Source: an uncultured Bacteroidales bacterium (GTDB lineage: Bacteria; Bacteroidota; Bacteroidia; Bacteroidales; F082). From it: a stretch of DNA of 64,000 bases. The stretch spans positions 1 to 64,000 of the forward strand of contig CAJOEZ010000002.1 in NCBI GenBank assembly GCA_905233685.1. The letters are read 5' to 3'. The notes below the pieces were generated by a model that did not search any database, was not told the DNA's origin, and worked only from the letters and a program-made list of their open reading frames with translations. Below, one piece after another: positions 15,387 to 42,246 of the stretch (position 1 is the stretch's first letter; each line of letters begins with the position of its first letter). The translations under genes were made by a program, and so were the position numbers.

Positions 15387-15728
15387 TTATTTTTCTTTTA
15401 AACCTTTGTTTGTTGAATCATACTTCAGAAAACGAGATCCAATCTTTGTGGCCTTTTTAGTATTTGAGACTGAAACAGATGCTAGATAGAATATTTGCAC
15501 AAAGTCATCTGAAGAAATATTCTCATTTTTACTCCATGCCACTATGGCATCGGCAACTTCTTTTGATTGTATCGATTCACTATATGGAAGCACATAAGTC
15601 GACTGATCTTCAGCCTCAACGTAACCCATTCCTTCTACTAATTCTTTGAATGATTCTCTTGTTTCATCTTCTGAAAAATCGTATGTCAATACGTGTTTGT
15701 AATACATATTCATTATTTTCAAGTTCAT
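15387..15728 (-). CDS. hypothetical protein, 113 aa, possible ferredoxin-like fold
   Basis: Not recognised as a named family. After MNLKIMN the sequence YYKHVLTYDFSEDETRESFK reads as a strand then helix, followed by STYVLPYS, a helix (SKEVADAIVAWSKNENI) and DDFVQIFYLASVSVS. This strand-helix-strand-helix-strand order and length are reminiscent of small Cas2/VapD-like ferredoxin-fold proteins, but no catalytic residues can be matched with confidence. Alternative starts at 15713 or 15707 would shorten the N-terminus slightly. It is 10 bp downstream of the membrane protein gene at 15739 and on the same strand, so the two are probably cotranscribed. Confidence 0.55.
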   Translation of the reverse strand: MNLKIMNMYYKHVLTYDFSEDETRESFKELVEGMGYVEAEDQSTYVLPYSESIQSKEVADAIVAWSKNENISSDDFVQIFYLASVSVSNTKKATKIGSRFLKYDSTNKGLKEK

Positions 15729-16404: not shown

Positions 16405-17289
16405 CTACTGCATCATGCCTCTTGCTCCCTCATAGGAGCAACTTTGGGCCCCTATGCGTTGGGCTGCGTTAAGGGCATCTGCAATGGCAGCGGGCATGAA
16501 ATTGAATATCTCCTGTTTTTCTTTGTCTTTATATAGTTCGTTAATCAAGGCCGCAGCCGTCCAGTCACCTGCGCCAGCGGTGTCAACCACATTGTCATTA
16601 TGAACGGGTTCAAGATGATTCCAATCGGAATTGAGGCGGTAAATCAGCCCTTCGGCACCCTGGGTCTGTATGAAGAGTTTGTCGGCCACGCCGTCGAACT
16701 GACGATAGTCCTTAATCCTCTGGTCGGAAAACTTGACCACATCGGCCACCTCAACACATTTATTGAACGTCTTCACATCGCCTCCACGGCTGGAAGGTTC
16801 GAAGAAGACGACGGAGCCTTTCCCCTTGAAAGTAGTGGCCAGTTTCAGTATGGCCGGGGCAACGCGGTCGAAGAAGAACACCTTGGGCACGAAGTCGATG
16901 CGTTCGATAACGGCATCGGCCTGTTTCTTGGTCAGGGGCTTGAAGTCGAGATAGAAATGGCCGTGGCCGTGGCGCGACTCGAAGCGATGGGTAGGCACAC
17001 CGTCTTTGTTGATGAAGTTGCGCTGCACGATGACCGGGGTCTTGCCGTCGTTGGTGGTGATATAGTCGGTATGCACACGGTGCTTGTTCATATCGTCGAG
17101 CACACGTCGGGTATCCTTGGTCTGGTCCAGCCGCGCAATGGGATAAGACTCCCAACCCATGTGCGAGAGAATCATCATCACATTGCCGCACGTACCCCCC
17201 ACATAATAGGACACTGGAAGGTTTTCGCCATCCCAAATCAGGACATCAAGGCTGATGAGGCCAGCTCCGAGGACTTTGTTGTCTGTCAT
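16405..17289 (-). CDS. PfkB family carbohydrate/nucleoside kinase
   Basis: A 294-residue ribokinase-fold enzyme. The C-terminal signature DNVVDTAGAGDWTAAAL contains the DTxGAGD anion hole and catalytic Asp. The N-terminal VLGAGLISLDVLI and YYVGGTCGNVMMIL regions match the family's substrate lid. It phosphorylates a sugar or nucleoside hydroxyl using ATP. It is the last gene of the cassette running from 24935, 75 bp after the 369-aa gene, with heptad repeats in the gap. Its neighbours handle phosphosugars (SIS-HAD) and probably PRPP, so a ribose- or nucleoside-type substrate is a reasonable guess only. Confidence 0.88.
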   Translation of the reverse strand: MTDNKVLGAGLISLDVLIWDGENLPVSYYVGGTCGNVMMILSHMGWESYPIARLDQTKDTRRVLDDMNKHRVHTDYITTNDGKTPVIVQRNFINKDGVPTHRFESRHGHGHFYLDFKPLTKKQADAVIERIDFVPKVFFFDRVAPAILKLATTFKGKGSVVFFEPSSRGGDVKTFNKCVEVADVVKFSDQRIKDYRQFDGVADKLFIQTQGAEGLIYRLNSDWNHLEPVHNDNVVDTAGAGDWTAAALINELYKDKEKQEIFNFMPAAIADALNAAQRIGAQSCSYEGARGMMQ

Positions 17290-17364
17290 AAAGTTTATAG
17301 TTTAAAGTGTATGGTTTATAGTCAGTTGAAAGTGTATGGTTTAAGAGTTCAAGAATTTAAGGGG
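17290..17364. repeat. heptad-type repeats between cassette genes
   Basis: The gap is built from AGTTTAT/AGTTTAA/AGTGTATGGTTTA units, the same repeat class as 23387-23453 and 24936-25030. These repeats occur at both ends of the six-gene cassette and inside its SIS-HAD gene. Confidence 0.6.
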
Positions 17365-18474
17365 TTAAGACTCGCTGTAGGCTTCGCCTGTGATCCAGAG
17401 AAGGAAGGGTTCGCTTGTTGTGTTGAGTGCTTTCAGGGCATTGGCGTTCTGGATGGTGTAGTCGGTTGAACTCACATTGTAGATGGCTACACAGTCGTTG
17501 AATTCCAATCCAATCAGAAGTCCGCCCAGCGATAATAGTTTGCTAGTCAGCAACGCAATGCCGAAGCATACATTTTCGCTGATGGGTTTCAAGGTCTTCT
17601 TGTGTTCTCGTATCATCTTCGACACGATGCGGTACAGCTCGAAAGGATTCTGTTCATCGGCATACGTGATGCTCAGCGGGTCATGGAACAGCTTCTCCTC
17701 AAAGAACTGATGGTACTCCTGCATCAAGTCATCGGCTCTGCGAGGACTGTTCATGGAAGGGAACGGAAGCACAGGAAACATATCGGAAGGTTTGAAACTC
17801 TCATAGATACCCCTTAACAGTTTCACATGCTTTTCTCCAATCAAAGGAATGAGGATACATATTCTGTCAAGAATAGATTCCACACTCAGCATGGACTTGA
17901 AACCAGGCAGAGCCTCTACGTTGTCGGTAGCCACATTCGTTTCTATACCTTTGTCGATTTCCACGTTCTCTGACACCGTGAAGAACAGATTCTTCGTATC
18001 GTCATTCTTCAATTTGGTAAACAGTGCCTTGGCTATGTTGAAATAAAAGGCTCTAGGCAGAGAACTCACATCCAAAATCACATCTCGATACTGACTCAAA
18101 TCGCGTTCTGCCACCTGACGGCTCATCACAGCAATCCGCTTCTCCCAACTCTGAGTGGTATCTATAGGTATCTCGGAGAGAGAGAATCCATATTTCTTCT
18201 GTAGGGCTTCAAGTGCCTTGACATTGTCTTTGTATAGTTTACGGCTTTCGGTATTGCCGCCGCTATCCGGGAAGTCAAATGTCAGACAGTCCAAACTAAG
18301 ACCCTTTACATTCTCCAGTAATAGAGTTAATGTATTGTTCATACGGGGATCGAAACCTTTGCCCAATAGAAACAAGACTTTCACTTGGGGATTTTCGCCA
18401 TAGAACTCCTTACAGAATTTCGCCAGCTCATTCTTGCCGTGATACTTTACGTATGATTCCCATCTATACTTCAT
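17365..18474 (-). CDS. hypothetical protein, 369 aa (candidate system component)
   Basis: No named family is recognised. The N-terminal part looks Rossmann-like: VKVLFLLGKGFDPRMNN (31-47), LSLDCLTFDFPDSGG (59-73) and a conserved-looking DVILDVSSLPRAFYFNIAKA (131-150). The last segment resembles a ligand-binding or nuclease-like strand-loop. The C-terminus (NVCFGIALLTSKLLSLGGLL) is hydrophobic but too polar overall to call a membrane helix with confidence. It follows the AAA ATPase gene by 9 bp and precedes the PfkB gene, so it belongs to the six-gene cassette. It may be a sensor or effector for the ATPase; nothing in the sequence proves this. Confidence 0.75.
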   Translation of the reverse strand: MKYRWESYVKYHGKNELAKFCKEFYGENPQVKVLFLLGKGFDPRMNNTLTLLLENVKGLSLDCLTFDFPDSGGNTESRKLYKDNVKALEALQKKYGFSLSEIPIDTTQSWEKRIAVMSRQVAERDLSQYRDVILDVSSLPRAFYFNIAKALFTKLKNDDTKNLFFTVSENVEIDKGIETNVATDNVEALPGFKSMLSVESILDRICILIPLIGEKHVKLLRGIYESFKPSDMFPVLPFPSMNSPRRADDLMQEYHQFFEEKLFHDPLSITYADEQNPFELYRIVSKMIREHKKTLKPISENVCFGIALLTSKLLSLGGLLIGLEFNDCVAIYNVSSTDYTIQNANALKALNTTSEPFLLWITGEAYSES

Positions 18475-18483
18475 TTCTGTGTC

Positions 18484-20334
18484 CTATTTTGTAGATTTAG
18501 CCCATTGATTCAACCGATATAATGACAACTTGCGCCATCCACCGCGACGCAGTGGCAGATGGGCGTAAGCGCATAACCATTCATTGAGATAGAATACAGC
18601 CCAATTCTGGTCTTTCTTGCCCTGTGTGCGCGGCACTTTATAGAGCAAATTGTAGGCCAAGCAGTCTTTCAACAAGGTTGCCAGCTCTTCGTTGGCAGCA
18701 TCCTGGAACCAAAATCCATCTTGCCCATATTGTCCCGAGTTTTCTTCCTTGACCGCGAATCCGCTCACGGTACGGTAGGAATATGAAGGGCTGAATGTCT
18801 GCTCGCGGCAGAAATCAATAAGGTTCATCAGGAATGCATAAATTCTGTTACCCCTTTTCATCTGCTTCACGTCTTCAAGATGGCTCTTACAATAGTCACT
18901 CACAATCTTGTCCTGATCTTCCGGAGTCAGGTCATAGCGAGCCGTATCCATAATCTTTTTGGAGAGCAACATTTCATACATCTTAGAAGAAATGCTGAGA
19001 AACTGTTCGATATTGCCCGAGGCCAAGTCTATCAGCGTCTGTTGGCCGTAGTACTGAGGCAACCTGGTGTTTTCGCCAGGCAGCAATTCCTCTGCGTAGT
19101 CATTATAATCCTTGCTCAGGATGGCCATCATCTCCTCATAGTCGTAGTCGAACAGCCTTGGGGTATTGTTTTCGCGCGAAGCATAAATCAGCATGGCTTT
19201 GATGTGCTTGGCACGATCGTATGGGTCTTCCTTGATGATGGCTTTTGCACATGCTTCATAGTTAGGATAGGTTGGCAGATCCTCAAGTTGGGCAAAATAC
19301 CTCTTGCTGGCCTCATTGTAAACTGCGTTATAGTTCACTGTAGAAATCTCTGACAGATAGGTGAAGAGGTCGGTGCCATCGTAAGACACCTTAGAACGCA
19401 TGGAAGCGATACCCTTGGCCATCTTATTGAACAGACCCTGAGACAGATTCTCCAATTTGATAACCTGATAGTCCCTACCTTGAATATTATTGTCGCTCAA
19501 TATATCCTCGGTGCTAAGCGTTTCCAAGCGCTCAGCGACCCACAATGTGGCATGGACGCGACGTTCGGCCACCTCACCGCGTATGATTTTTTTCTGTCGC
19601 TCGGTAAGTTTGTGCGCATCGTCTATCTGGAAGATGAACTCTTTGCATAACGGTCGGTTCTCGAAAGTGAACCATTCTGCCTTCATTGCGTCTAGGGCAA
19701 ACAGGTCGTCGTTGCCGTCGATACCGTCTGCTGGCACCACAAAGCTGTCGAGGAACTCACAAACCTTCCGTTCCTGACGGGTAGCCCAGTCAAGCAGTTC
19801 CTTGCCAGTGTAACTCTCTTTTATCTCCCCTAACTGATTAACAGGTACTTCGGGTGTGTAAGTAATTCTCTGAAGATTGGTATATTTGATACCTGCCAGT
19901 GTCATGCATGACTTGAGGGTTGCCAGCACGATTCTTGCGTTGAGCAATGACAAGAAATAGCGTCTTTGTTCACGACGGCCAAACAGTTCATCATCTTCGA
20001 GAAACTCATAGTCGCGACCCATCTGGAGATAGACACCGCACTTCAGGATTTGCTCTTCGCCGTCCTTCACACCCAACTTATGCAATTTACGGAAAATAAG
20101 GTTGGTTCCCTTTGCAGTCACTCTTTTGAGCACTGAAGGCGAGAAGAGGCGCAGCAAAGTGGTCTTGCCTGCCCCGGGCGAACTCAATATATAGGTCATT
20201 GTACCCCAAAGCGAATCGTTCGCATGGTTATCTTCCAGGTATGAGAGAGGCTCGACAGAAAACAGTTCAAGGAACCGTTCATCGGTCTCTATACGTTCGG
20301 AAGCTCGTATGGCAAAAGGATTCTTGTAGTTCAT
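18484..20334 (-). CDS. ORC/CDC6-like AAA ATPase (candidate system component)
   Basis: About 616 residues. Residue numbers here count from an upstream TTG at 20346 that overlaps the previous stop; the ATG at 20334 is preferred as the start. Walker A is YILSSPGAGKTTLLRLF (52-68) and Walker B is FIFQIDDAHKL (237-247), followed by a sensor-like ATLWVAERLE. The overall order resembles ORC-CDC6-type AAA ATPases annotated in bacterial conflict systems. The C-terminal half is helical with no recognised domain. In the cassette it follows the PRTase-like gene by only a few bases and precedes the 369-aa gene by 9 bp. It is probably the ATP-driven switch of the system (inference). Confidence 0.8.
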   Translation of the reverse strand: MNYKNPFAIRASERIETDERFLELFSVEPLSYLEDNHANDSLWGTMTYILSSPGAGKTTLLRLFSPSVLKRVTAKGTNLIFRKLHKLGVKDGEEQILKCGVYLQMGRDYEFLEDDELFGRREQRRYFLSLLNARIVLATLKSCMTLAGIKYTNLQRITYTPEVPVNQLGEIKESYTGKELLDWATRQERKVCEFLDSFVVPADGIDGNDDLFALDAMKAEWFTFENRPLCKEFIFQIDDAHKLTERQKKIIRGEVAERRVHATLWVAERLETLSTEDILSDNNIQGRDYQVIKLENLSQGLFNKMAKGIASMRSKVSYDGTDLFTYLSEISTVNYNAVYNEASKRYFAQLEDLPTYPNYEACAKAIIKEDPYDRAKHIKAMLIYASRENNTPRLFDYDYEEMMAILSKDYNDYAEELLPGENTRLPQYYGQQTLIDLASGNIEQFLSISSKMYEMLLSKKIMDTARYDLTPEDQDKIVSDYCKSHLEDVKQMKRGNRIYAFLMNLIDFCREQTFSPSYSYRTVSGFAVKEENSGQYGQDGFWFQDAANEELATLLKDCLAYNLLYKVPRTQGKKDQNWAVFYLNEWLCAYAHLPLRRGGWRKLSLYRLNQWAKSTK

Positions 20335-20342
20335 AATGTCAA

Positions 20343-21506
20343 TCAATGACGGCTGATTCGGGGAAACAGACCTTTAAATTGTTTATCATCGTCAGCATCC
20401 TGCCATAAGATAGGCAGTGAGTTGTTAGGGGTGTTATGAGAAAGCACCACGGGCAAGGCACATTCGTCGAATCCCAAGTAGGGTCTGACAGTGCTGCCTA
20501 CGTTATAGGCTTTGTCATCCTTTAATTCCTGATGAAGATATTGCGGTTTCTCCAATACTTTCATCAAGTCTGGATTTTCGGTAATCCCTTTACTCAAAGA
20601 TTCGTCCAAGGGCTGAACAACATGAATGTGGTACTTCACATTGTTATAACCACGTTTTTCCAAGAAGTCGTCAAGACTTTTACGGATGTTTTCTTCTGCT
20701 TTGTGTGTGGCCATGCAGAAAAGGATGTCAATATGAATCATTTGCTGTTCGGGATCCAAAAGATAGCTTAGGTGCAGCTCTTCTTTCTTGCCCTCTGCCA
20801 ATTCCTCTTTTGTGCGTTCAATATTCTTGGCACAAAGTTGGTCAATTATCTTGGAGAGTTTTCCTTTGAATCTTTTTTCCTTATCGTCGTAGCGCACGAA
20901 ACTCTTGCCGCTGGCTGTGAAATCGTCAATCAAGAATATACTGCGGAAATAAGGTTTTTCTATTCCCTTGAGCTTCTTGTCCTTTTTCAAATCATCAAGC
21001 ATATCCTTCAGCTTTTTCTCGTCAGGATAATAGTTGGTGAGTACCTGCTCGTTGCTGAAACCTGCGCTGCGGCGCAAAATGTCGGTATGGGCACCGTCGC
21101 TAAGACCGACAACCAGAGAAGAACGTTTCTCAATCTCGAACTGCTTCTGCACCTCTTTGTTGCACAACATGTAGGATGGTTTGCCTGTGTTTTCCGTGGA
21201 TTTTTTCAGTAGTATCGGGCGGATTTTCAGGTCGTACAATAGGCCAACCAGATAATTCATCTGGGTGGAAGAGATAAACACCAGTTTCTTCTTGACAAAC
21301 TCAAGGACGGTGGCCCTGTCTTCCTCATCAAACTGGCTCAGCCATTGTACCAAGCTACTCATGAAGCGCGTACCAGGCATAAAGCGGTCATAGGCATCGT
21401 ATTTCATGCTGCCCATGAATTCAAGCTCGGGACGCTCGGAGTTTAATCCCGCATAGTCCCAGCCCATTACGTTTGACAATAGCTGACTGGCTAAATTACT
21501 GTTCAT
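20343..21506 (-). CDS. phosphoribosyltransferase-like protein (PRTase-CE-type candidate)
   Basis: A 387-residue protein with a PRPP-loop-like motif SIFLIDDFTASGKSFVRY (189-206), the form DDxxxxGxS seen in type I phosphoribosyltransferases. GLSDGAHTDILRRSAGF (134-150) is a likely second substrate-loop segment. The N-terminal ~100 residues are helical. Classical PRTases swap PRPP's pyrophosphate for a base. Divergent relatives occur in bacterial conflict systems, and I recall the name PRTase-CE for them but cannot check it here. The start overlaps the SIS-HAD stop (ATGA), showing translational coupling. C-terminal KKLVFISSTQMNYLVG-type strands early in the protein suggest an added recognition domain. 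Confidence 0.75.
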   Translation of the reverse strand: MNSNLASQLLSNVMGWDYAGLNSERPELEFMGSMKYDAYDRFMPGTRFMSSLVQWLSQFDEEDRATVLEFVKKKLVFISSTQMNYLVGLLYDLKIRPILLKKSTENTGKPSYMLCNKEVQKQFEIEKRSSLVVGLSDGAHTDILRRSAGFSNEQVLTNYYPDEKKLKDMLDDLKKDKKLKGIEKPYFRSIFLIDDFTASGKSFVRYDDKEKRFKGKLSKIIDQLCAKNIERTKEELAEGKKEELHLSYLLDPEQQMIHIDILFCMATHKAEENIRKSLDDFLEKRGYNNVKYHIHVVQPLDESLSKGITENPDLMKVLEKPQYLHQELKDDKAYNVGSTVRPYLGFDECALPVVLSHNTPNNSLPILWQDADDDKQFKGLFPRISRH

Positions 21507-23386
21507 ACGTTGAATTTACATTTGATAACTCCATCGGTCACAGTGAGGTGGTTTATATAATAGAGCGTTGCGTCGAGGCCGGTTACGCCCGATGGAGCGA
21601 TGTTCCAGCAACAATCGGCATTCTTAGAGACTCTGTCAACACTGAGCGAGGCAGGGCTGGTGAGCATCTCGTAGTCGTTGCCCTCAACGCTGCCGTAGTC
21701 GCCAATGCAAAGGGTATGGTTTTTGTCTTCTATCACCTGCAATTTGCTCACCTCACGGTACACCACAATATCCATGCTGTGGCTGCTACGCCACACACGG
21801 ATGCCTTTCAGTTGTTTGTCCCAGATAATTTCGCGGCAGATATCATATACCATCTGAGACTCTTCAGGGGTCATTTTACCCTCTATCGATAGTTGAAGGC
21901 TCCGCTCCTCGAACTGATATTGCACACAGGTTTCGGGTAGGCGGTGTTTCAGTTCCTCCTCCAACTGTTTCAACTCAGGATCGAAAGGCATCTTCTTCCA
22001 TGCTTTCAGCTTGTCTTCTTCACCAAGGGTCAAAGGACAAGCACCGTTGTAATAACCTATCTTTATCTGCTGCCAATACTTACGGTCGAAAGAGTTTTTG
22101 AAGGAGTCGCCTACAGATTTGCCCCGGCCAGTAGCAACAACAATCTGCACACCATTGTCCAACAATTGCAGCAAGGCATCCCTGATGTCGTCGCACAAAC
22201 CATTCTTGAATCTGCTCTTATGGTCTTTGGCGGAGAGGGTTCCGTCGTAATCGAATGCTATTTTGGAATAGCTGCCTCGGTTGATACGCTGAACAAAACG
22301 CTTGCATGCCTTTGAATAATACTCCCACAAAGAAGTGTTTTCCTTGGCTGCGATGCCTAACTTGCGAAGCACCGCTACATCGAGGGTTTTCTCATTGGGC
22401 AATATGCGATTGGTGAGCTTGAAATAGTCCAAGTTGTAGAGCAATCGGCCATACGAAGGAACACCAGGACGGCCAGGGTCGATACCACGGGCTTCGCCTA
22501 AGGCGTTCACAAAACCGAAAACCTTCAGCAGCAGGTCGATTGACGCTTGGGGCGTATCCAATTCTGTTTCAATATAAATTACCGGCACATCGGCAGGCAT
22601 ACATGCCAGGGTCTTGTCGGCCAACTCCTTCTCCACGGGAGTCACCAGTGCGATAATGCACGAATTGTTCTTGTTCTTGGCAAACCAATGATGCCTTCCG
22701 TGACCGAAGTTGCGGTAGTCGCTCAACAAAGCAGAACCCAAGGCCGCCTCGGTCAGCTTCGACTCGATATCCCACGCAACAGGTTCGCCCAAAGCTCCGT
22801 AGAGGACGAGGAAGTTCCATGGTTCAAGGTTCAAGGGTTCAAGGTTCAAGGGTTTAGAACTTTGAACTTTGAACTTTGAGCCAACCGCAGCTTTGCAGAG
22901 CAGCGTGAAGGTGGCGACGAGTGAGTTGGTGGCTAAGAAGCCATCCTTCTCGGTGGGGATGTCTTCGCACCAGCGTTGCACCTTGGGGTACTGCTGGAGG
23001 AGTTCCTCGGTGGGGTTGCCCTTGCGGAGGGTGAGGCTCATCATACCGACCTCGTTATATTTCACACCATATTTGATGGCGTTCAGAATGTCTTTGTTCT
23101 TTCCGCTGGCACTGAGGAAAAGCAGTTTGCTGCCACGGATGATTTCCTTGCCCGCATACATCAACTGCAGCGGTGTCATAGCCTCAGCCAACACTCCGTT
23201 GCGCTGCCGCGACAGCATGGCCGCATAATGGCAGGCACTGAGCGACCCCCCCGAACCGATACAAATCAGCGGGGTTTCCTTATTCTCGGAGAATAGGAAA
23301 TTTGACAGGCTGTTTACATCCTGCTGCTCTGCCCACTGGATAGTGGAGGGGATGTTTGTTAGTTCGTCTTTAAAAGGCTTGCCCAT
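21503..23386 (-). CDS. SIS domain-HAD hydrolase fusion (candidate system component)
   Basis: A 627-residue fusion. The N-terminal part (about 35-340) is a SIS phosphosugar-binding domain: LICIGSGGSLSACHYAAMLS (40-59) and LLFLSASGKNKDI (88-100). The C-terminal part (about 370-627) is a Cof-type HAD phosphatase: FDYDGTLS (378-385) with the nucleophile Asp, VVATGRGKS motif II, and IGDYGSVEGNDYEML for Mg binding. It would bind and dephosphorylate, or isomerise, a phosphosugar. Residues 171-190 (KFKVQSSKPLNLEPLNLEPW) are encoded by intergenic-type heptad repeats inserted in frame. It overlaps the downstream PRTase gene by ATGA. Confidence 0.85.
   Translation of the reverse strand: MGKPFKDELTNIPSTIQWAEQQDVNSLSNFLFSENKETPLICIGSGGSLSACHYAAMLSRQRNGVLAEAMTPLQLMYAGKEIIRGSKLLFLSASGKNKDILNAIKYGVKYNEVGMMSLTLRKGNPTEELLQQYPKVQRWCEDIPTEKDGFLATNSLVATFTLLCKAAVGSKFKVQSSKPLNLEPLNLEPWNFLVLYGALGEPVAWDIESKLTEAALGSALLSDYRNFGHGRHHWFAKNKNNSCIIALVTPVEKELADKTLACMPADVPVIYIETELDTPQASIDLLLKVFGFVNALGEARGIDPGRPGVPSYGRLLYNLDYFKLTNRILPNEKTLDVAVLRKLGIAAKENTSLWEYYSKACKRFVQRINRGSYSKIAFDYDGTLSAKDHKSRFKNGLCDDIRDALLQLLDNGVQIVVATGRGKSVGDSFKNSFDRKYWQQIKIGYYNGACPLTLGEEDKLKAWKKMPFDPELKQLEEELKHRLPETCVQYQFEERSLQLSIEGKMTPEESQMVYDICREIIWDKQLKGIRVWRSSHSMDIVVYREVSKLQVIEDKNHTLCIGDYGSVEGNDYEMLTSPASLSVDRVSKNADCCWNIAPSGVTGLDATLYYINHLTVTDGVIKCKFNV
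22817..22876. repeat. in-frame heptad repeat insertion inside the SIS-HAD gene
   Basis: Direct repeats of GTTCAAGG (22-23 kb strand order: GGTTCAAGGGTTCAAGGTTC, then inverted TTTGAACTTTGAACTTTGA) encode residues 171-190 of the SIS-HAD protein. The same units fill the gap just upstream of the gene (23387-23453). The frame is kept, so the inserted peptide probably forms a tolerated surface loop. Confidence 0.75.
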
Positions 23387-23453
23387 TTTTAGTTTAGAGT
23401 TTATGGTTTATAGTTTAGAGTCAGTTGAAAGTTGATAGTTTATAGTTCAAAGT
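23387..23453. repeat. heptad repeats between unknown 493-aa and SIS-HAD genes
   Basis: This non-coding gap consists of AGTTTAG/AGTTTATGGTTTATAG/TTCAAAGTTCAAGG units. The heptads run a few bases past the stop codon of the 493-aa gene at 23454. No promoter motif is clear. Confidence 0.65.
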
Positions 23454-24935
23454 TCAAGGTTCAAGGTTTAAGTATTCCTTGCGGAGGGACTTAAGGACTT
23501 TGGAGGCTTCGTGCCACTTGGGGTCTTTGGTGAAGTCGGGGTTGCGGAAGTATTTGTTGAACGAGGGCTTCGCTATGGGAAAGGCCTCATCGTCGCGGTT
23601 TTCTACTTTCGACAGGGCTTCGTACAACTTGTCGCTGAAGGGTCTGAGCTTCTTGAAGAGGTTCATCTCGGATGCCTCGCGCAGCAGGTGTACGTAGGTT
23701 TCCATCCTGATATTATCAAGGCCCTCCTCCATCAGTTTTAGCAGTTCCACTTGGGGTTCTCTCAACGATACATCCACCTTTGGCGAGAACCATTGGGCAA
23801 AGAGGCCGTTGAGGTCGGCAAGGGTCTTGCCCGTGGCCATGCAGGGCAACAGGCGTGCATTGTAGGTTTCAACGTGCTGAAGCACACGGTTGATGCGCTG
23901 CTGGATGTCGTCGGAATGACGGGCAGTGTTGTCGAAACGGGTCTGCAAAGTGCCTTCAAGCTGCTGGCACATGGCCTCCATCAGGAGGAAGAGGGTTTGG
24001 AGGTGTTCCTCCTCGCCGTCGCTCAGGGTCACGTCCTTACGCACGAGGAAATCGACAATGCTGTCCTCGTCAAGCACCTGAAAATGCTGACCAGCATTGA
24101 GATTGACAAAGTTTAAGACCTTTGAGAAAAGTTCGTCGTTGGCCCAGGGCTTGGCTTTGGCCGGAATCTGCTTGGGGGCGGGGTTGATTTCGTCCTCCTC
24201 GAAGATGTTCTTCAACTGGTTGAGCAACTCGTGCCGCTCGCTCTCGGAAATATCCAAATCGGATAGCTCGTCCTTGCCCACGAGGGCTTGGATGCGCTGG
24301 CGCAGATATAGCAACTGGCGGATGACCGAGGTGTTGCGCTTGTTGCTGCAATAGTAAACATAGTCCTGAAGCTCGGTCTGGATGGACTCCTTCCGGGACG
24401 CATTGTCGAGATAGGTTCGCAAAGCCTTGCCGCGCTTGTCGCCAGAGACGCGCAGGGGCAGCATGGCAAGGTTGCCGAGGTTGGTTTTGAGCGAATCGAG
24501 AGCCATTTCCAACTCCTCGATGGCCTGGTGGTAGGGCTTGCGGGCGATGCTGTCGTAAGGATGCTCCAGCTTGACCTTGCTGTTGGGGACGGCATTGCGG
24601 TCGCACAACTTCTCCATGAGTATTTGCAGACGTGCGGCACGTCCCTTGCCGATGGCCGTATCATGTTCCAACTGGAATTCGGGGTTGGACAGCTTCTCCT
24701 TCCAGTTCTGGATTTTGCGCAACCACTCGTCGAAGGGGAAACTGACGTAGAAACTGATATCCAGACGCTCCTCCATGAGTCGATACTGCGTAGTGACCCC
24801 CTCCGCCGCATTCTGGGCATACATCACAAAAAGGAGTATGTCAGTGTGGCGGAACAGGTCGGCAAGGTTGGCTTGGGTCATCAGAAACTCAAGCACTTGC
24901 AGACGAGCGGTGATATGTTTTGTTTCTTCGTACAT
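23454..24935 (-). CDS. hypothetical helical protein, 493 aa (candidate system component)
   Basis: Not recognised. The protein is largely helical and charged, with repeated leucine/glutamate-rich segments such as LLFVMYAQNAAEGVTTQYRL near the N-terminus and EEHLQTLFLLMEAMCQQLEG around 320-340. No Walker, zinc-finger or nuclease motif is seen. KQIPAKAKPWANDELFSKVL suggests a proline-rich linker near residue 260 separating two helical halves. It is the first gene of the six-gene cassette in transcription order, 67 bp upstream of SIS-HAD. It is probably a scaffold or recognition component; this is inferred only from position and composition. Confidence 0.75.
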   Translation of the reverse strand: MYEETKHITARLQVLEFLMTQANLADLFRHTDILLFVMYAQNAAEGVTTQYRLMEERLDISFYVSFPFDEWLRKIQNWKEKLSNPEFQLEHDTAIGKGRAARLQILMEKLCDRNAVPNSKVKLEHPYDSIARKPYHQAIEELEMALDSLKTNLGNLAMLPLRVSGDKRGKALRTYLDNASRKESIQTELQDYVYYCSNKRNTSVIRQLLYLRQRIQALVGKDELSDLDISESERHELLNQLKNIFEEDEINPAPKQIPAKAKPWANDELFSKVLNFVNLNAGQHFQVLDEDSIVDFLVRKDVTLSDGEEEHLQTLFLLMEAMCQQLEGTLQTRFDNTARHSDDIQQRINRVLQHVETYNARLLPCMATGKTLADLNGLFAQWFSPKVDVSLREPQVELLKLMEEGLDNIRMETYVHLLREASEMNLFKKLRPFSDKLYEALSKVENRDDEAFPIAKPSFNKYFRNPDFTKDPKWHEASKVLKSLRKEYLNLEP

Positions 24936-25274
24936 GACTTATTTAGTTGATAGTGTATGGTTTATAGTTTATAGTCAGTTGGAAGTTGATAGTTTAAAAG
25001 TTTAAAAGTTTAAGGGTTTGAGGTGATGGTTTAGGTGATTGAACGTCGGGGTGGGGTTCTAAAAAGTGATTTGGAATCACCCATCCTTGTTTTTATCTGT
25101 ATATCAATAGATTAAAAATACTTTCCGAAGTGATGAAAGAAGATTTTTAAGAGGGTTTGTCTTGCTCTATTGTTGCAAATCGAAATCAGTCGGGAGTGCA
25201 TCCCGGGTAAGTCACGAACCGACCGCTTTCACGAGTAAATCACCAATTGTTTCACCTTTTAATAATTAACGCTT
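24936..25274. other. intergenic region with heptad repeats, divergent gene starts
   Basis: No gene is found in these 339 bp. The left third is heptad-type repeat (AGTTGATAGTGTATGG..., AAAAGTTTAAAAG). The right part is AT-rich DNA between the minus-strand cassette and the plus-strand M15 gene and should hold promoters for both. I see no convincing Bacteroidetes TTTG/TAnnTTTG pair with normal spacing. Confidence 0.45.
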
Positions 25275-27637: not shown

Positions 27638-27913
<276 letters not shown>

Positions 27914-28267: not shown

Positions 28268-28439
28268 TGTAGAGTTTAGAGTTTAGAGTCAGTGGTTGGT
28301 TTAGAGTAGCAAGTTTGGAGTTTCTTTTTTACTCCGCCACAGGCGGCACTATCAACTTCAAAACTGTCTCTCAACCCTAAACTCTAAACTCTAAACTATT
28401 TCAACTGTCTCTCAACACTAAACTCTCAACTCTCAACTA
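28268..28439. repeat. intergenic heptad repeats
   Basis: GTGTAGAGTTTAGAGTTTAG units at the left pass into the complementary CTAAACTCTAAACTCTAAAC units at the right, forming a potential long hairpin between two convergent genes. It may work as a bidirectional terminator-like structure, although no T-tract is evident. Confidence 0.5.
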
Positions 28440-35843: not shown

Positions 35844-37517
35844 TTAGCATCTATAGATGGTTTGTAATTTGTTCTTAATGATAGGACACTCTGATTCTGA
35901 CACATTGCATCGTGGAATTTCGATGTCGTCAATAAGAGAGTAGAAATGAGCTTTTTCCTTACCTGAGAGAATGTCCTTTTTTTCTCCTTTCTTTCCACAA
36001 TAAAACAACGAAATTAAATGGATGTTCTTTTTGGGGAACTGATCTTCAATGATTTCAACAACTTCTTCGGCATCAAATGTAATGTCTTTTATGATAATTA
36101 CTGTGTTATAATTAGAAAAACCAATATCAGTTTCTATATCATTATGATCATTCACTTCACGTTTCCGAGGCATATAACTGAAATCAAAGGCGGGAAACAA
36201 CACCGACAATCTTGCACCCACTACAGTACATTCCAAACCAATCGACACCATTAATGTTTTATTGAGAGTTGTTTCCCTTTGTATTTCTTCTATCTTTTCC
36301 TTATATAATTGAGTTATTGTTTCCAACGATTCGATATGGGATACGAGATAATTGATGTCGATATATCCATGAGATTTAAATTTGCTATTTTCGCCTCTCT
36401 TGTCTGTATTCCAATGAAAATGTCCTGAATAATATAATTGTTGGTCTTTTATTACATCAAGAATACTTTTATGAGAGCCTGTAATATTTGAGTCTTTTTG
36501 AACTTGTTTTCGTGGATTTTCTAGTTCCTGTTCTCTTAATTCATTACTATCAGACGATATACTATTCCAAACACTATTATTCTTTAACACTATTTTTTTT
36601 CTGAACGGAGAGTCTGTTTGCTCCTGCCAGTAATGCTTGGAAAAAGATGTGTCTTCTTCATAATTGTAATACTTTATTTGTAAATCGAAAGAATCATTTG
36701 AGATAGTATATATATTGCATTTCCCAATAGCATCTTTTTTCAACAAACTTCCGACTGAAATAAAATGAATGGTATCATTTTCGCCACCAAACACTTCACT
36801 TTCTCCATCTGAACTATGAATATGCCCACAAAACACAACAAATGGCTTTCCGAGATTTTTAAAATCTAATTCCCTCCAATTTCTAAACTCATGTTTTTCC
36901 TTTGCCAAATCTTTAGGATTATGATGCATCACTAAGCATTTAACATAGTCTTTATATTTGGAATCTAGTTTGCGAAAATATGTCTCAAAACTATTTTTAT
37001 CAACATATCCATAGTGATCTTCCGTCTGATTACTTTCATGATAACAGGTATTTACACCTAAAAACAATATTTCATGTACATCATCTGGAATTTCAACGAA
37101 TATTGCATCTGTTTTAAATTGTCGAATTTGATTGTCTCCCTCTTTATAAAAGTCATTATAGAACTTTTTGAAGTTATCATACTTTTCTTTTTTCAAATGC
37201 AAATCTTTCGTTCCGCTCTTGTCTGCAATCTTTCCAAGTTTTTCCCAAGAAACATCATGGTTACCCATACAAATCAGAACCTTCTCCTTGGGAAGTCCCA
37301 ACTCTGACACAATTTTGTTCAAGAAAACCGATGCTTTATTATATTCTATTGTTTTAGACTCATTGGCTATGTCACCACTGACAATCAGATAATTTATATC
37401 TGCATTCTTAAACCTTGCAACGAATTCCTCAACAAATGAATCACTATAACGTGTTTTATCTTCATTTTTCTTCGTTCCAAAATGCAGATCTGAAATATGC
37501 AATATATTTAAGCTCAT
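35844..37517 (-). CDS. calcineurin-like metallophosphoesterase with C-terminal PRTase-like domain (candidate system component)
   Basis: A 557-residue protein. The N-terminal phosphoesterase has all core motifs: ILHISDLHFG (D10, H12), YLIVSGDIANE (48-49), LICMGNHDVSWE (85-88), CLVMHHNP and VVFCGHIHSSD. The C-terminal ~200 residues resemble an orotate-PRTase-type fold: YYSGHFHWNTDKRG then SHGYIDINYLVSHI (in the position of the substrate segment) and TVIIIKDITFDAEEV (in the position of the PRPP loop, degenerate). It overlaps the upstream PRTase-like gene by ATGA. It may hydrolyse a nucleotide or phospho-ribosyl product; this is inferred from domains. Confidence 0.75.
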   Translation of the reverse strand: MSLNILHISDLHFGTKKNEDKTRYSDSFVEEFVARFKNADINYLIVSGDIANESKTIEYNKASVFLNKIVSELGLPKEKVLICMGNHDVSWEKLGKIADKSGTKDLHLKKEKYDNFKKFYNDFYKEGDNQIRQFKTDAIFVEIPDDVHEILFLGVNTCYHESNQTEDHYGYVDKNSFETYFRKLDSKYKDYVKCLVMHHNPKDLAKEKHEFRNWRELDFKNLGKPFVVFCGHIHSSDGESEVFGGENDTIHFISVGSLLKKDAIGKCNIYTISNDSFDLQIKYYNYEEDTSFSKHYWQEQTDSPFRKKIVLKNNSVWNSISSDSNELREQELENPRKQVQKDSNITGSHKSILDVIKDQQLYYSGHFHWNTDKRGENSKFKSHGYIDINYLVSHIESLETITQLYKEKIEEIQRETTLNKTLMVSIGLECTVVGARLSVLFPAFDFSYMPRKREVNDHNDIETDIGFSNYNTVIIIKDITFDAEEVVEIIEDQFPKKNIHLISLFYCGKKGEKKDILSGKEKAHFYSLIDDIEIPRCNVSESECPIIKNKLQTIYRC

Positions 37518-38584
37518 TTAATATCAGATTTAATTTCAGGAAAGTCGGTTATTATTTGATAATCAATAGGATTGTAGCCTTTTTTAAGTGTTAACAAGGC
37601 GACTTTTTCAATTTCACTCTCTATTTTAGGCCGTTCCGAAACGACCTCCACTAATACAACCGAGAGTATTCCTTTCAGATTACCTCCAGCATGTTCAATT
37701 AATGTTTTAGCCCGTTCAACTTCAGCACCTAAGCAAACCACGTCTGAAATAATTAGATAATCTCTATCAGCCAACAATTGCTCTTTATGAAGTTCGTGGT
37801 AGAGTTTTTTCTTTGGTCCCAAATGGTTTAAGAAGACCATATCAACACAAGCCAGCTTAGAAAACACAGAAGCTAAGTAAGATCCGGCAATTGAATTAAA
37901 AAACAGAAGAGGTCGCTTTTCGCCTACTGTTAGCCCATCAATTAGTTTTTTACTAATGGCCTTTTTGCATAATAGATATAATCCCAAAAATAATATATCT
38001 TTTTGTTCAATATAGGCTTTCACATTAATGTATCTTGGTAATTGAACATTGCTGGAATGGCTATAACTTGCTTCTCCTGTCCTTTCTATCACAAAAAAAT
38101 TATTAGGATTTGATTCTAATATGGATGCATTTTGATTCTGATACTTAACATAAATCTCATCATCCGTGATGCTGTTGTTCAAACAACCACAGTTAAAAAC
38201 ATTGTAAGTTTTGTTGTCGTTTTTATTTTCGGACAAACCGTTTTTATGAATTTTCGCGTCCCCATATAATCTTTCACTCATTCTACAAAACACCAAGCTC
38301 TTATTCTGTTCTTTACAGAAATCAATAATCTTTTCAATCCATTCTGCAACGTTGTGAGCCTCTTCTGCTTCGGCACAATCTATGACAATACTATTAATTC
38401 CTGATGTATTATCATGAATATAATTATATATGTCACTTACTGTACGTTCAGCTATTTCATGACTGAAATACCCCAACTTGTTATTACACAGGCTAAAATT
38501 GCGATAAACCTGTTCTGCATGAAGAAACACATATAAGGTATCGTCTATTTCTAGTTTAGCGTAAAGTGTTTGTTTTGATTTCAT
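37514..38584 (-). CDS. phosphoribosyltransferase-like protein (candidate system component)
   Basis: A 356-residue protein. The C-terminal half is PRTase-like: YSHSSNVQLPRYINVKAYIE (174-193), LLFFNSIAGSYLASVFSKLA (226-245) and a PRPP-loop-like DYLIISDVVCLGAEVERAKT (275-294). The N-terminal ~110 residues (GINSIVIDCAEAEEAHNVAE, then KSLVFCRMSERL) could be a STAS-like domain. Its gene overlaps the ATPase gene by 29 bp and the phosphoesterase by 4 bp. The nucleophile base and product are unknown. It is the second PRPP-loop protein in the accessory region after the one at 20343. Confidence 0.7.
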   Translation of the reverse strand: MKSKQTLYAKLEIDDTLYVFLHAEQVYRNFSLCNNKLGYFSHEIAERTVSDIYNYIHDNTSGINSIVIDCAEAEEAHNVAEWIEKIIDFCKEQNKSLVFCRMSERLYGDAKIHKNGLSENKNDNKTYNVFNCGCLNNSITDDEIYVKYQNQNASILESNPNNFFVIERTGEASYSHSSNVQLPRYINVKAYIEQKDILFLGLYLLCKKAISKKLIDGLTVGEKRPLLFFNSIAGSYLASVFSKLACVDMVFLNHLGPKKKLYHELHKEQLLADRDYLIISDVVCLGAEVERAKTLIEHAGGNLKGILSVVLVEVVSERPKIESEIEKVALLTLKKGYNPIDYQIITDFPEIKSDIK

Positions 38585-39776
38585 AGTCTTTAAATTTTAT
38601 TTCAACCTCAACATGAATGCCGCTAAATCTACCATCAAAGAACCGCAAATTCGATGTCGATACCTCATTGGCTGGATTATAATGACTTAACAAACATTTT
38701 GCACACACATCAGGTGCAAATTTGTTGCATTTAAGGCATCTTTTTGATGTCATAATAACTTGTGTGTCATTGTAATGAATCCTAATTGTCCCTTCTTCGA
38801 TACCATAGTTATCATTCTTTCTTAATACAACCGCCACCAAAGTGTATAAATTATCTCTTGCAACACTTTTTTCCTTTGAATATTGTAACGCCTCAAATAT
38901 ATATAGGAAATTCTTATACTTTTCTTGTTCTTCTGAACTGAACTTTTTGAACACTTTTGTGTAATCTCCTCCAAACTTTCCTTGTCTCTTCTTAAAAGAA
39001 TACTCAAAACCAACGCCACAATCAGAAATTGATATTTTTGTTATGTTATCTTTTGTCTGTAACATTGCCGAACAATGCGAACCACTATACAGCACAGCAT
39101 TAGTTATAATCTCGGTCAAGATGTCTAATATAGTACATCTATTATTGTCACTCAATGTTTTGAGGATATTCCAATATCTTTTCTCAACAATTGGCTTCAG
39201 CTCTTGATATTTTTCTGAACGAATAATACCCAGTTCTTCTTCGGAAACATCCTTTTGAATGAATTTACTATAATATGAATATGAATCCTCATTATAAACA
39301 TACACGCGGTGGTCAGGGTTATACGGTTTACTCACATTGGAAAAATTGTAAAAGCCCAACATTTTTGGTTCGAAGTCGTATAGTTCGTAACCCGTTGCTT
39401 GTTTAATCGTATGTACTATTCCTGACCCGTCAATATCTAACTCTTCACTGTAGACACTCTTCGAGCCAACGGCTTTAAAAAACCAACCATTATCCAAAAA
39501 TTTAGTGGCATTTGTACTTGCTATTTCCAAGCATGTAGAATTTTTATGAATACTCTTCAAAATAAACCCTAAGCTAATCAAATTCGGAACAACCAAAGGA
39601 TCAAAGCGAACAACATGAACAAATGAGAAAATAGGAGCTACTGAAACACCATTTACTCTGTAATGTTCTCTGAGTGCAGTGAATAGTTGGTTATAGAACA
39701 CAAAAGAGGTAATATTTCCTGCGAAATAGATTTTCTTTGCCTCATCGTCGTATTGGATAATATTGTCTTCTATCAT
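38556..39776 (-). CDS. STAS-like/GHKL ATPase fusion protein (candidate system component)
   Basis: A 406-residue protein. The N-terminal ~110 residues (KKIYFAGNITSFVFYNQLFT, RFDPLVVPNLISLGFILKSI, LEIASTNATKFLDNGWFF) look like a STAS (anti-anti-sigma type) domain. The central part is a GHKL/HATPase_c domain: DILTEIITNAVLYSGSHCSA (N-box, 218-237) and ISDCGVGFEYS (G1 box, 250-260). The C-terminus has a Cys cluster, RCLKCNKFAPDVCAKCLLSH, probably binding zinc. It lies first in the three-gene unit and may act as the regulator or sensor ATPase. Confidence 0.7.
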   Translation of the reverse strand: MIEDNIIQYDDEAKKIYFAGNITSFVFYNQLFTALREHYRVNGVSVAPIFSFVHVVRFDPLVVPNLISLGFILKSIHKNSTCLEIASTNATKFLDNGWFFKAVGSKSVYSEELDIDGSGIVHTIKQATGYELYDFEPKMLGFYNFSNVSKPYNPDHRVYVYNEDSYSYYSKFIQKDVSEEELGIIRSEKYQELKPIVEKRYWNILKTLSDNNRCTILDILTEIITNAVLYSGSHCSAMLQTKDNITKISISDCGVGFEYSFKKRQGKFGGDYTKVFKKFSSEEQEKYKNFLYIFEALQYSKEKSVARDNLYTLVAVVLRKNDNYGIEEGTIRIHYNDTQVIMTSKRCLKCNKFAPDVCAKCLLSHYNPANEVSTSNLRFFDGRFSGIHVEVEIKFKDYEIKTNTLR

Positions 39777-39899
39777 CTTAATAACCGTAATAATAAATGT
39801 TGATAATTCAAGTCTGTCAGATCACTTCCCTACATCATACCATCTTATTCTTTTACCACATAACTTTCTACAAAATCTTTCATGTTAGAATCCCTGTCA
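39777..39899. other. 123-bp gap between candidate system and STAND gene
   Basis: No gene is seen. AT-rich DNA upstream of the STAS-ATPase gene should contain its promoter, but no TAnnTTTG box with correct spacing is visible on the minus strand. Confidence 0.35.
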
Positions 39900-42194
39900 T
39901 CAAAAACCTCTAATCGTGGCAAACAAGTTGTCTATCTCCTGTGTCTCTGAATCCGCATACTCATCGGGCCCGTATCTGTAATCATCTTGATATGCCTCAA
40001 CTTGGGCATCAATGTAATTAAGGTATTCATCCTTACGCTCCCTGATTTCGTATACCACGGATTCCGACCCTAACAAAGAAACCTGTTGGCACAATTCATC
40101 AACCGTGGAATCAAGATCTTCCAAATCGGTGTCCTTGGTGTTCCTAAGATCGTTCTGAAGACAACCTGCTACAATAGAACAAAACTCTTTCGATTCCAAA
40201 CAATCACTATGGTTTGGAAATACCTTACTGATTGATGAAACCAATTCCAAACAATCATCACCATAATACAACCTTGAAAGGTAGTTCGAAAAAAGGGAAT
40301 CAAGATCCAGTGTTGTCTTACTCACATCCATATGCTCCAGAAGCTTCAGCTGGAAATAGATGCTAACACCAGTATCTGTCATGATTTGCTCCGTTACCTT
40401 CTGTTCCACATAACCGGGCCGCGTTTTCACTAATTCTTCATGATATACGAGAAGATTATACAACACTTCGGCTCGGGTTCGTGGGTCACTATTTATATAC
40501 CTATTATTTGTCGAATCTACAAAGGTCACCGTCCTGCAACTCCTACAATCATTCCACAACCGATCAAACACCTTAAAGAATTGGTTTGCCATTTTGGAAG
40601 AAAAAGACATATCCCAAGGAGGTCGCCTAAACTCACGAAGAGCGCCAAATGCTTGCTCAACAAAGCAGGCACTCTCAAGTAGCACTTCCTTCACGTGTTC
40701 GTTTTCTCCAATGTATCGCACAAGAACATCAAACACCCCAGGATTATGAAAATCGACATGCGTTCCTCCTCGATCTTTACCTATAGTGATGAAGTTATCC
40801 TCCAAAACCTTTACCGCCTTTTTCCAATCCACATCGTTCAGATAACCTTTCTCTTTATATACCTTCTCAAAAAAATAGGTATATGCCTCCTTCCACTTGT
40901 CGTACATGACTGGCGTTCCCATGGTAGCCAACACCAACAAGGCTTCTTGCTCAATGGTCGAAAGACGGTCGAATGCTTCAAGCCACACACTGTCAGGATG
41001 GTCAAAGAAACCTTTTATCTTATCAAAATACACTTCAAGTTTACACTGCTCATGCGTCTTCTGTGTAAGGAAAGTCTCAATGATACGGGGACTGAAATGC
41101 GGATGATCGATAATTTTCAAGTAGTTTTTATCCTTGAGAATAGCGTTGATGTATTCCTGGGGTATTTGGTTTGCAACAAGATGGTTATATAGAATCTGAG
41201 CTCTTACAAAGCGGGTGTATTTCCCCATATCCACCACGCACTTCGACATCTCTATGCCCCTACCCTCCTTGAGCCGTCCATAGCGAGCCAGTCCTTGCTG
41301 AAGGATGTATTCTCGAGTGGTCAAAATAAACAACTTGTCCTTTTCTCGCTGGCAAGCATTTATAAACTTTACAATCCGGCTGTCAAAGTTCTTTTCACCT
41401 TCCTCAAAAGTGATTTGACCCATGAAATCGTCGTAGAAGAAGACCTGGCGCTTTCCCGTTTGCAACACCTTCACCAAATCATCAATACTACTATTGGTGT
41501 AATAGAACTCTTCGAAATTGGTGAAACTCAAGGTATCGGTAAACTTATCTGAAAGGAGATGCATCACAAGCACCCGTGCCAAAGTAGTCTTTCCAATACC
41601 TGGCTCGCCCGAGATAACCACATAACGGTTCTCCAACAGTTTACTCAATGCCTCGTTGAAGCTATCGTTCATTACATAGGTACGAATAGTTTCCTGCATC
41701 TCATCCTTTTCAAAACTTGTCCAATTGACAATGTTTTTGTTCAGTATGGAATTAAGTACATTGGTACTAGCCAGCCACAGTTTATAATACTGCCGTTCCA
41801 CATCGGGATGTAAAGCCAATATTTTGTTTAAATCCTGTTTAGCCCAGATGTCTCCCTCTTTTTTAATATACGGGGCGAACAACCCCATAATCTCATTTTT
41901 GTTGGCAGGAGTGAGGTCGACCGAGGTAACGAGCATATAGCGATCAGGATTCAACGCTTTCACCTTGTCAGCCTCTTTCTTCAATTCTGGTTTTAGCTCT
42001 TTATAATCAATGTATCGTTTAGCCTGTACAATAACCGTTTTCCCTTTTCCATAGGAACAGCGAAGGTCAACACCTCCATCCCTTCCCTCGGCAAAGTTCG
42101 CCAAGTCGAGTTTCTCGTGCGAGTTAATCAAATCTCGGGCAAAACATTCAAACTCGAATGCACTTAGCAAGTTTCGGAAATCATAGTTCAGCAT
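39900..42194 (-). CDS. Mrr-like nuclease fused to STAND NTPase (nSTAND3-type), probable defence protein
   Basis: A 764-residue protein. The N-terminal ~120 residues are a PD-(D/E)XK domain like Mrr: FEFECFARDLI (13-23), AEGRDGGVDLRCSY (36-49, catalytic Asp43) and TVIVQAKRY (53-61, QxK). Walker A is YVVISGEPGIGKTTLARVLV (191-210), Walker B-like VFFYDDFMGQITFEEGEK, and the sensor segment is KLFILTTREYILQQG. C-terminal residues are helical repeats probably used for recognition. Nuclease-STAND proteins are known phage-defence effectors; the specific trigger is not evident. It stands alone upstream of the STAS-ATPase gene. Confidence 0.85.
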   Translation of the reverse strand: MLNYDFRNLLSAFEFECFARDLINSHEKLDLANFAEGRDGGVDLRCSYGKGKTVIVQAKRYIDYKELKPELKKEADKVKALNPDRYMLVTSVDLTPANKNEIMGLFAPYIKKEGDIWAKQDLNKILALHPDVERQYYKLWLASTNVLNSILNKNIVNWTSFEKDEMQETIRTYVMNDSFNEALSKLLENRYVVISGEPGIGKTTLARVLVMHLLSDKFTDTLSFTNFEEFYYTNSSIDDLVKVLQTGKRQVFFYDDFMGQITFEEGEKNFDSRIVKFINACQREKDKLFILTTREYILQQGLARYGRLKEGRGIEMSKCVVDMGKYTRFVRAQILYNHLVANQIPQEYINAILKDKNYLKIIDHPHFSPRIIETFLTQKTHEQCKLEVYFDKIKGFFDHPDSVWLEAFDRLSTIEQEALLVLATMGTPVMYDKWKEAYTYFFEKVYKEKGYLNDVDWKKAVKVLEDNFITIGKDRGGTHVDFHNPGVFDVLVRYIGENEHVKEVLLESACFVEQAFGALREFRRPPWDMSFSSKMANQFFKVFDRLWNDCRSCRTVTFVDSTNNRYINSDPRTRAEVLYNLLVYHEELVKTRPGYVEQKVTEQIMTDTGVSIYFQLKLLEHMDVSKTTLDLDSLFSNYLSRLYYGDDCLELVSSISKVFPNHSDCLESKEFCSIVAGCLQNDLRNTKDTDLEDLDSTVDELCQQVSLLGSESVVYEIRERKDEYLNYIDAQVEAYQDDYRYGPDEYADSETQEIDNLFATIRGF

Positions 42195-42246
42195 AAAAAA
42201 AACCTAAACACTCTGTTTTTCACAAAAATTCAGATTGTTATACACA
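42195..42246. other. short gap between STAND and ATPase-nuclease genes
   Basis: 52 bp of AT-rich DNA; no gene and no clear signal. Confidence 0.3.

Follow-up and report, generated by a model that had tools for sequence, protein, structure and literature searches.

A conserved set of five genes, found here in a 64,000-nucleotide stretch of an uncultured Bacteroidales genome (GCA_905233685.1, contig CAJOEZ010000002.1; hereafter the window), is present on plasmids and chromosomes of distant bacteria. It encodes a phosphoribosyltransferase (PRTase) of the PRTase-CE type, an ORC-CDC6-like AAA+ ATPase and a tandem CARF protein, together with a SIS-HAD fusion protein and a PfkB-family sugar kinase. 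Comparison of related loci indicates that the PRTase-ATPase-CARF trio is replaced as a block, with borders at gene junctions. On balance we lean towards reading the cassette as a two-module system against invaders, be they phage or rival mobile elements, with a putative defence role and a putative nucleotide-type ligand. The original prediction, made from the letters of the window, described six co-directional genes, and all six open reading frames (ORFs) are real; they and their principal motifs lie as follows:

21503..23386, minus strand: SIS-HAD fusion, 627 aa, with an N-terminal GlmS/NagB-II-type sugar-isomerase half and a C-terminal HAD (Cof-type) phosphatase half; usually a constant flank of the trio
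20343..21506, minus strand: PRTase-CE, 387 aa; opens the exchangeable trio
20898..20939, minus strand: PRPP-loop motif, PRTase residues 190-203; all 19 aligned rows share D195 and G200
18484..20334, minus strand: ORC-CDC6-like AAA+ ATPase, second gene of the trio; the 620-aa ORF is counted from TTG 20346, the probable start being ATG 20334
20161..20181, minus strand: Walker A motif, residues 56-62 of the ATPase ORF; G58, G60 and K61 unchanged throughout the 19 rows
17365..18474, minus strand: tandem CARF (CARF6-type) protein, 369 aa; last gene of the trio, with no effector domain seen fused to it
18058..18084, minus strand: conserved CARF segment covering residues 131-139; all 19 rows keep D135 and S137
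16405..17289, minus strand: sugar kinase of the PfkB family, 294 aa, flanking the trio as a constant gene
23454..24935, minus strand: 493-aa protein, family not found; a neighbour outside the core

Replacement of the trio can be read directly from two loci of the window's genus, L078 (genome G691) and L079 (G681). Their 493-aa, SIS-HAD and PfkB proteins are 98.2, 97.3 and 97.3% identical, and the accessory genes adjoining CARF 97-98%, whereas identity in the trio is 38.5% (PRTase), 33.9% (ATPase) and 33.1% (CARF). By blastn, the two match at 94.6% identity as far as 16 bases downstream of the PRTase start; the match picks up again, at 97.1%, 28 bases beyond the CARF stop. L013 and L014 present the reverse pattern (trio 99%, SIS-HAD 87%), and between L078 and L080 the trios are 79-86% and the flanks 77-79% identical. 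Because several pairs show the swap and reading frames are intact, an assembly artefact is unlikely. Among nine loci with five uncut genes (36 pairs), pairwise identities correlate at 0.99 or above within the trio, at 0.87 between SIS-HAD and PfkB, and at -0.10 to -0.20 between modules; the contigs of L012 and L014 stop short of PfkB, so these two loci were excluded, as at first was L098, in which a contig end truncates SIS-HAD. Approximately unbiased (AU) tests reject, on ATPase data, a clade of the window, L078 and L079 (p 9e-9) and one of L078 and L079 (p 3e-4), and on SIS-HAD data, clades of L078 and L080 (p 7e-5) and of the window, L008, L009, L010 and L011 (p 3e-4), though these p-values are optimistic, since the groups were chosen with the data already seen and L079 sits on a long branch of the ATPase tree. 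Block exchange suggests that recognition or effector specificity sits in the trio, under diversifying selection.

The constancy of the SIS-HAD/PfkB pair is challenged by L098, whose trio shares 71-78% identity with the L079 trio and whose PfkB shares 98% with the L011 protein. Its 401-aa SIS-HAD piece shares only 42-46% identity with other Bacteroidales copies, and when L098 is admitted (45 pairs, 10 loci) the SIS-HAD/PfkB correlation drops to 0.12; that within the trio stays at 0.99, SIS-HAD/trio values rise to 0.20-0.26, and PfkB/trio values are -0.20 to -0.24. SIS-HAD thus appears to be exchanged sometimes too, in which case the border may on occasion lie before SIS-HAD, as in L098, and PfkB evolves apart from the trio across the whole set.

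The composition and order of the set are equally direct observations, and span three phyla. A scan with the CARF protein returned 12 loci, in Prevotellaceae, Bacteroidaceae, Porphyromonadaceae and other Bacteroidales assemblies, all with PRTase, ATPase and CARF in this order and SIS-HAD ahead, whole or cut by a contig end; seven (L003-L008 and L011) match the window CARF at 89% and are mutually close, and are therefore not independent. Protein searches of 72,556 plasmids matched the PRTase on 18 and SIS-HAD on 17, all 17 within the 18. Sixteen of these 18 plasmid loci were opened, from alpha- and betaproteobacteria and one actinobacterium: 15 carry PRTase, ORC-type ATPase and CARF in order together with SIS-HAD (L063 with three genes in pieces), and the sixteenth, L066, the PRTase only. 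PfkB was present within the opened stretch for 14 of these cassettes, all but L046. SIS-HAD stands directly before the trio in seven, after it in four, before it with PfkB in three, and between two trios in L045. On one plasmid (L050, 2320-3195) a gene annotated as nucleoside 2-deoxyribosyltransferase lies upstream of the cassette. Recurrence of the same genes elsewhere makes the observation more than chance. The original prediction took conservation of all six genes as its own test, and five of them do recur; the 493-aa gene falls outside the conserved unit. It occurs in the window, in L014 and in another three genomes of the same genus as the window, its profile matched only the window and L014 over the cassette loci scanned (including the 16 plasmid stretches), and its best Pfam match (E 0.051) is unconvincing; this confinement marks it as a neighbour rather than a core part.

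Distribution of the cassette is patchy and mobile. In a sample of the order (295 genomes), CARF or SIS-HAD was found at E <=1e-10 only in the window's own genome, and in a family sample (173 genomes) the SIS-HAD profile matched nine and the ATPase profile five, the five lying within the nine; the other four matches cover the SIS half only. Nine of the 18 plasmid records are predicted conjugative or mobilizable, and some loci lie near rep or transfer genes. On a Sinorhizobium plasmid (L045, 1-12134), two trios, the second with its PRTase in pieces, surround one SIS-HAD/PfkB/NADAR group, and a Rhizobium plasmid (L054, 14339-17095) has a second PRTase-ATPase start. These plasmid features, and the likeness of ORC-CDC6-like ATPases to replication initiators, would also suit a role in plasmid or island maintenance by addiction or entry exclusion, with the trio blocking rival plasmids or killing cells that lose the element, and SIS-HAD and PfkB detoxifying the product. 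We consider this unlikely, given that the cassette is rare among plasmids (18 of 72,556), occurs on Bacteroidales contigs too (in the window beside capsule genes), and has a five-gene make-up unlike the familiar addiction modules. Among IMG/VR contigs, L069, L071 and L072 hold SIS-HAD and the trio, and L070 holds PRTase, ATPase and PfkB, CARF being matched there by sequence search. A Mu portal gene lies on the L072 contig and a terminase on that of L069; the terminase match of L071 is below cut-off, and L070 is without one. The cassettes may lie inside phage or in flanking host DNA, and these contigs are not used as proof of phage cargo.

Two members of the trio are named by Pfam. The PRTase matches PRTase-CE (PF24390; E 3e-21, 77 bits against a cut-off of 27) and PADLOC PRTase_III-A (E 3e-19); phosphoribosyltransferases top the list for its predicted fold, which is of type I with a PRPP loop, and the sole match of its alignment in a PDB sequence search is an orotate PRTase (E 0.12). 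The ATPase matches ORC-CDC6-like (PF24389; E 4e-36, 125 bits against 27), and its Walker A and B residues G58, G60, K61 and D242 are invariant across the 19 aligned rows; a weak PADLOC match to mad8 (E 0.008) was not used. The PRPP-loop, Walker, SIS, HAD and PfkB motifs pointed out earlier are thus real as well as conserved. The 369-aa protein has no Pfam match up to E 1, and PADLOC assigns it, like the relatives tested, to CARF6 (E 6.7e-103). Foldseek's first rows for its predicted structure are transporter and desulfhydrase chains with a root-mean-square deviation near 19; a second aligner ranks CARF-type proteins first, with CRISPR ring nucleases, Csm6/Csx1, Can1, Can2, Card1, Cdn1, Cam1, Csa3 and Cad1 in rows 1-31, entries which we take to be CARF proteins, and mixed proteins in lower rows. 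Its closest fold is 6sce (presumably Can1), a cA4-activated DNA nuclease of type III CRISPR, and residues 131-139 presumably resemble the CARF DxTGGTK-type motif; when PDB sequences were searched with the CARF alignment, no CARF protein came up. Structure prediction therefore assigns the 369-aa protein a CARF Rossmann-type fold. Two proteins of unknown family had been proposed as parts of the system: the 369-aa one now appears as its predicted sensor, and the 493-aa one drops out of the core.

The flanking enzymes point to sugar phosphates. The C-terminal half of SIS-HAD matches Pfam HAD above its cut-off (PF08282, E 4e-5); its N-terminal half has no Pfam match, and by profile matches glucosamine-6-phosphate deaminase/GlmS-type proteins of the PDB. 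PfkB matches PF00294, likewise above cut-off (E 2e-14), with a fructokinase as its best PDB sequence match (74 bits, using a profile from a separate alignment, A4). The fructokinase match, the GlmS/NagB-II-like SIS half with its aligned F-x-HG stretch, and the sugar-nucleotide genes adjoining the window cassette could all be accommodated by a pathway of metabolism or salvage that handles a modified (phospho)ribosyl or Amadori-type compound, in which CARF and ATPase act as regulators and defence plays no part. Patchiness, mobile elements, block replacement of the trio, and AbiE and RloB genes in the accessory slot (see below) speak against such a pathway, as do related ATPase-CARF6 sets which carry a DNA methyltransferase or calcineurin-type enzyme with no SIS-HAD or PfkB profile match in the stretch, and we regard it as improbable.

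Relatives of the flanking pair suggest a more particular chemistry. A NADAR-annotated gene lies near eight of the 15 plasmid cassettes (L045, L046, L049, L050, L051, L054, L062 and L063), and Pfam confirmed NADAR on L049 and the viral contig L070, the only cassette loci so tested. Four SIS-only relatives in the window's family were opened (L094-L097). L094 gave no PfkB profile match; in L095-L097, from three genomes of the window's genus, PfkB adjoins NADAR-type and ART-like genes, the SIS gene of L095 being split. These PfkB proteins score 184-191 bits with the cassette's own profile (a different profile from that which gave the fructokinase match). Pfam, run on L095 and L096, found ADP-ribosyl hydrolase domains in both: it named NADAR (1e-13) and microbial PARG (2e-32) in the former, and ADP-ribosylglycohydrolase (9e-32), NADAR (4e-19) and ART-PolyVal (4e-5, under its cut-off) in the latter. 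This company suggests a derivative of ribose or ADP-ribose as the compound handled by SIS and PfkB, and the SIS-only, PfkB, NADAR-type, ADP-ribosyl hydrolase and ART-like genes of L095-L097 possibly constitute a separate ADP-ribose system.

AbiE- and RloB-type genes are common company of defence systems, and both occur in the slot after CARF, ahead of PfkB. Across 16 Bacteroidales loci this slot holds AbiEi/AbiEii-type genes, whole or cut by a contig end, in ten (L003-L008, L011, L012, L080 and L098), AAA_21 with RloB in two (L078 and L079), and an AAA_14/DUF4143 protein in two (L013 and L014), with none of these after CARF in L009 or L010; Pfam naming was done on L008, L078 and L013. In the window PfkB follows CARF directly, 75 bases on, and in L069 a type I restriction-modification methylase lies near the cassette. 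In a phylum sample of 296 genomes the ORC-CDC6-like model scored above cut-off in 17, of which five strong ones were opened, L057 and L059 being read as ORF lists only. L055 encodes a DNA methyltransferase, PRTase-CE, ATPase and CARF6; L056 a calcineurin-type phosphoesterase, ATPase and CARF6; and L058 a fused ATPase whose N-terminus, judged by eye, is kinase-like, along with a CARF6-like protein (1e-13) and a gene that by eye resembles a methyltransferase. In these three at least, ATPase and CARF6 recur with changing enzymatic partners.

Mobile and patchy spread, the company of AbiE, RloB and methyltransferase genes, trio swaps with conflicting trees, and sister operons of SIS, PfkB and NADAR together incline us, by a modest margin of confidence, to a defence function. 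Several observations count against it. No messenger synthase was recognised within the cassette, and the one genome searched, the window's own metagenome-assembled genome (MAG; 86% complete), yielded neither Cas10 (PF22335) nor the SMODS CD-NTase (PF18144) by which CBASS is recognised. Nor was NADAR found in this MAG, so the ADP-ribose link rests on relatives. The PRTase reaches 14.7 bits with the DS32_1 anti-phage PRTase model (NCBIfam NF053875; curated cut-off 250), over residues 53-125 only, and CARF and SIS-HAD queries were unmatched in 50,697 phage records. Further, the window cassette adjoins capsule-sugar genes, and exchange of metabolic or surface-sugar specificity modules could yield a similar swap pattern. 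Pfam named no TIR or SLOG domain, as in Thoeris, among nine proteins scanned, no search having been aimed at them. The PADLOC names PRTase_III-A and CARF6, and the cA4-activated nuclease as closest CARF fold, would fit a CARF accessory set of type III CRISPR, answering cyclic oligoadenylate made elsewhere; with no Cas10 found in the MAG, no cas-annotated gene in the 16 opened plasmid stretches, and related CARF6 proteins paired with ORC-like ATPases, this seems very improbable.

Under the favoured defence function, the ORC-like ATPase would detect an invader, or the state of its DNA, and spend ATP to switch the complex; the tandem CARF might bind a nucleotide-type ligand as a threshold sensor; and the PRTase would catalyse the effector reaction, either at the glycosidic bond of nucleotides or by transfer of phosphoribose. 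The pair of SIS-HAD and PfkB, joined by NADAR in the loci that have it, may make, recycle or clear a ribose- or ADP-ribose-derived metabolite used by the trio. A ribose or nucleotide signal under ATPase control, as originally proposed, is thus a reasonable reading, strengthened by the identity of the CARF protein and by the ADP-ribose enzymes beside relatives, and the proposal as a whole is partly supported. Tentatively, and at far lower confidence, we raise the possibility of a new signalling immunity, in which SIS-HAD/PfkB (with or without NADAR) makes a ribose or ADP-ribose messenger other than a cyclic oligonucleotide, to be read by the tandem CARF, and the trio serves as an allelic cassette for specificity, swapped through homologous recombination in the flanking genes, like restriction-modification specificity genes.

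The component families are already catalogued in Pfam and PADLOC. PRTase-CE/ORC-CDC6-like conflict families, reportedly from Nicastro et al. 2023 NAR, are a predicted nucleotide-targeting effector with an AAA+ regulator; both cassette genes score above the Pfam cut-offs for them, and the cassette adds a tandem CARF6, SIS-HAD, PfkB and block exchange. The CARF6 clade of PADLOC, said to stem from Makarova et al. 2020, includes CARF with kinase-AAA and is matched by the 369-aa protein and by the related loci pairing CARF6 with ORC-like ATPases, but here CARF has no fused effector seen and is partnered by SIS-HAD and PfkB. Unlike 6sce, it shows no nuclease domain, in a MAG without Cas10. If their PRTases share the cassette's family, outside support for defence would come from a DprA-PRTase pair that protects against T7 and lambda (PMC9122126), and from a figure legend in which PRTase is listed among the domains of validated defence systems (PMC13092281). 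Its SIS-only and PfkB relatives, adjoining NADAR, ADP-ribosyl hydrolase and ART-like genes, resemble the NADAR/ADP-ribose-processing neighbourhoods of PMC9503650, from which the NADAR-free MAG of the window differs. Predicted synthesis of a nucleoside-type signal by PRTase and HAD resembles that of the Ter-associated module (PMC7824862), although none of the module's parts TerB, TerC, TerD, TelA and TerF was recognised at the cassette, no search having been aimed at them. The combination of genes with block exchange was not found described in the literature searched, which does not establish its absence from print.

Within the window, the two tight junctions first described fare differently. 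The SIS-HAD stop (21503) and PRTase start (21506) do overlap by four bases (ATGA), but the PRTase stop (20343) overlaps the ATPase by four bases only if the listed TTG start at 20346 is used; most ATPase relatives start at residues matching the next in-frame ATG, and translation probably begins at that codon, 20334. Gaps of 9, 75 and 67 bases separate ATPase from CARF, CARF from PfkB, and the 493-aa gene from SIS-HAD. A 24-base repeat immediately precedes the 493-aa, SIS-HAD and PfkB genes but no trio gene (window sites 17306-17329, 23405-23428, 24959-24982, 27850-27905 and 28273-28296; six matches against none in 100 shuffles). As similar AAACTATAAACT units are spread across the window, this leader was dropped as a regulon mark, and is treated as a common spacer repeat. 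A variable loop in the SIS half of SIS-HAD, where relatives differ, contains a repeat-like peptide at residues ~170-192, FKVQSSKPLNLEPLNLEPWNF; it looks as if a spacer repeat had been inserted in frame. A 113-aa protein at 15387-15728 scores weakly as Cas2-like, at E 0.003 with PADLOC and E 0.05 with NCBIfam. The partly low-GC region 35844-44129, with a metallophosphoesterase, nSTAND3 with an Mrr nuclease domain, an AAA_15 ATPase and Pfam-unmatched genes, is likely a second defence cluster.

The natural allele pair, with flanks 97% and trios 33-39% identical, makes the specificity of this cassette directly testable. If the proposed defence system is borne out, it would place CARF sensing outside CRISPR, with a ligand supplied by sugar-phosphate or ADP-ribose enzymes, and so would add a class of messenger to bacterial immunity.

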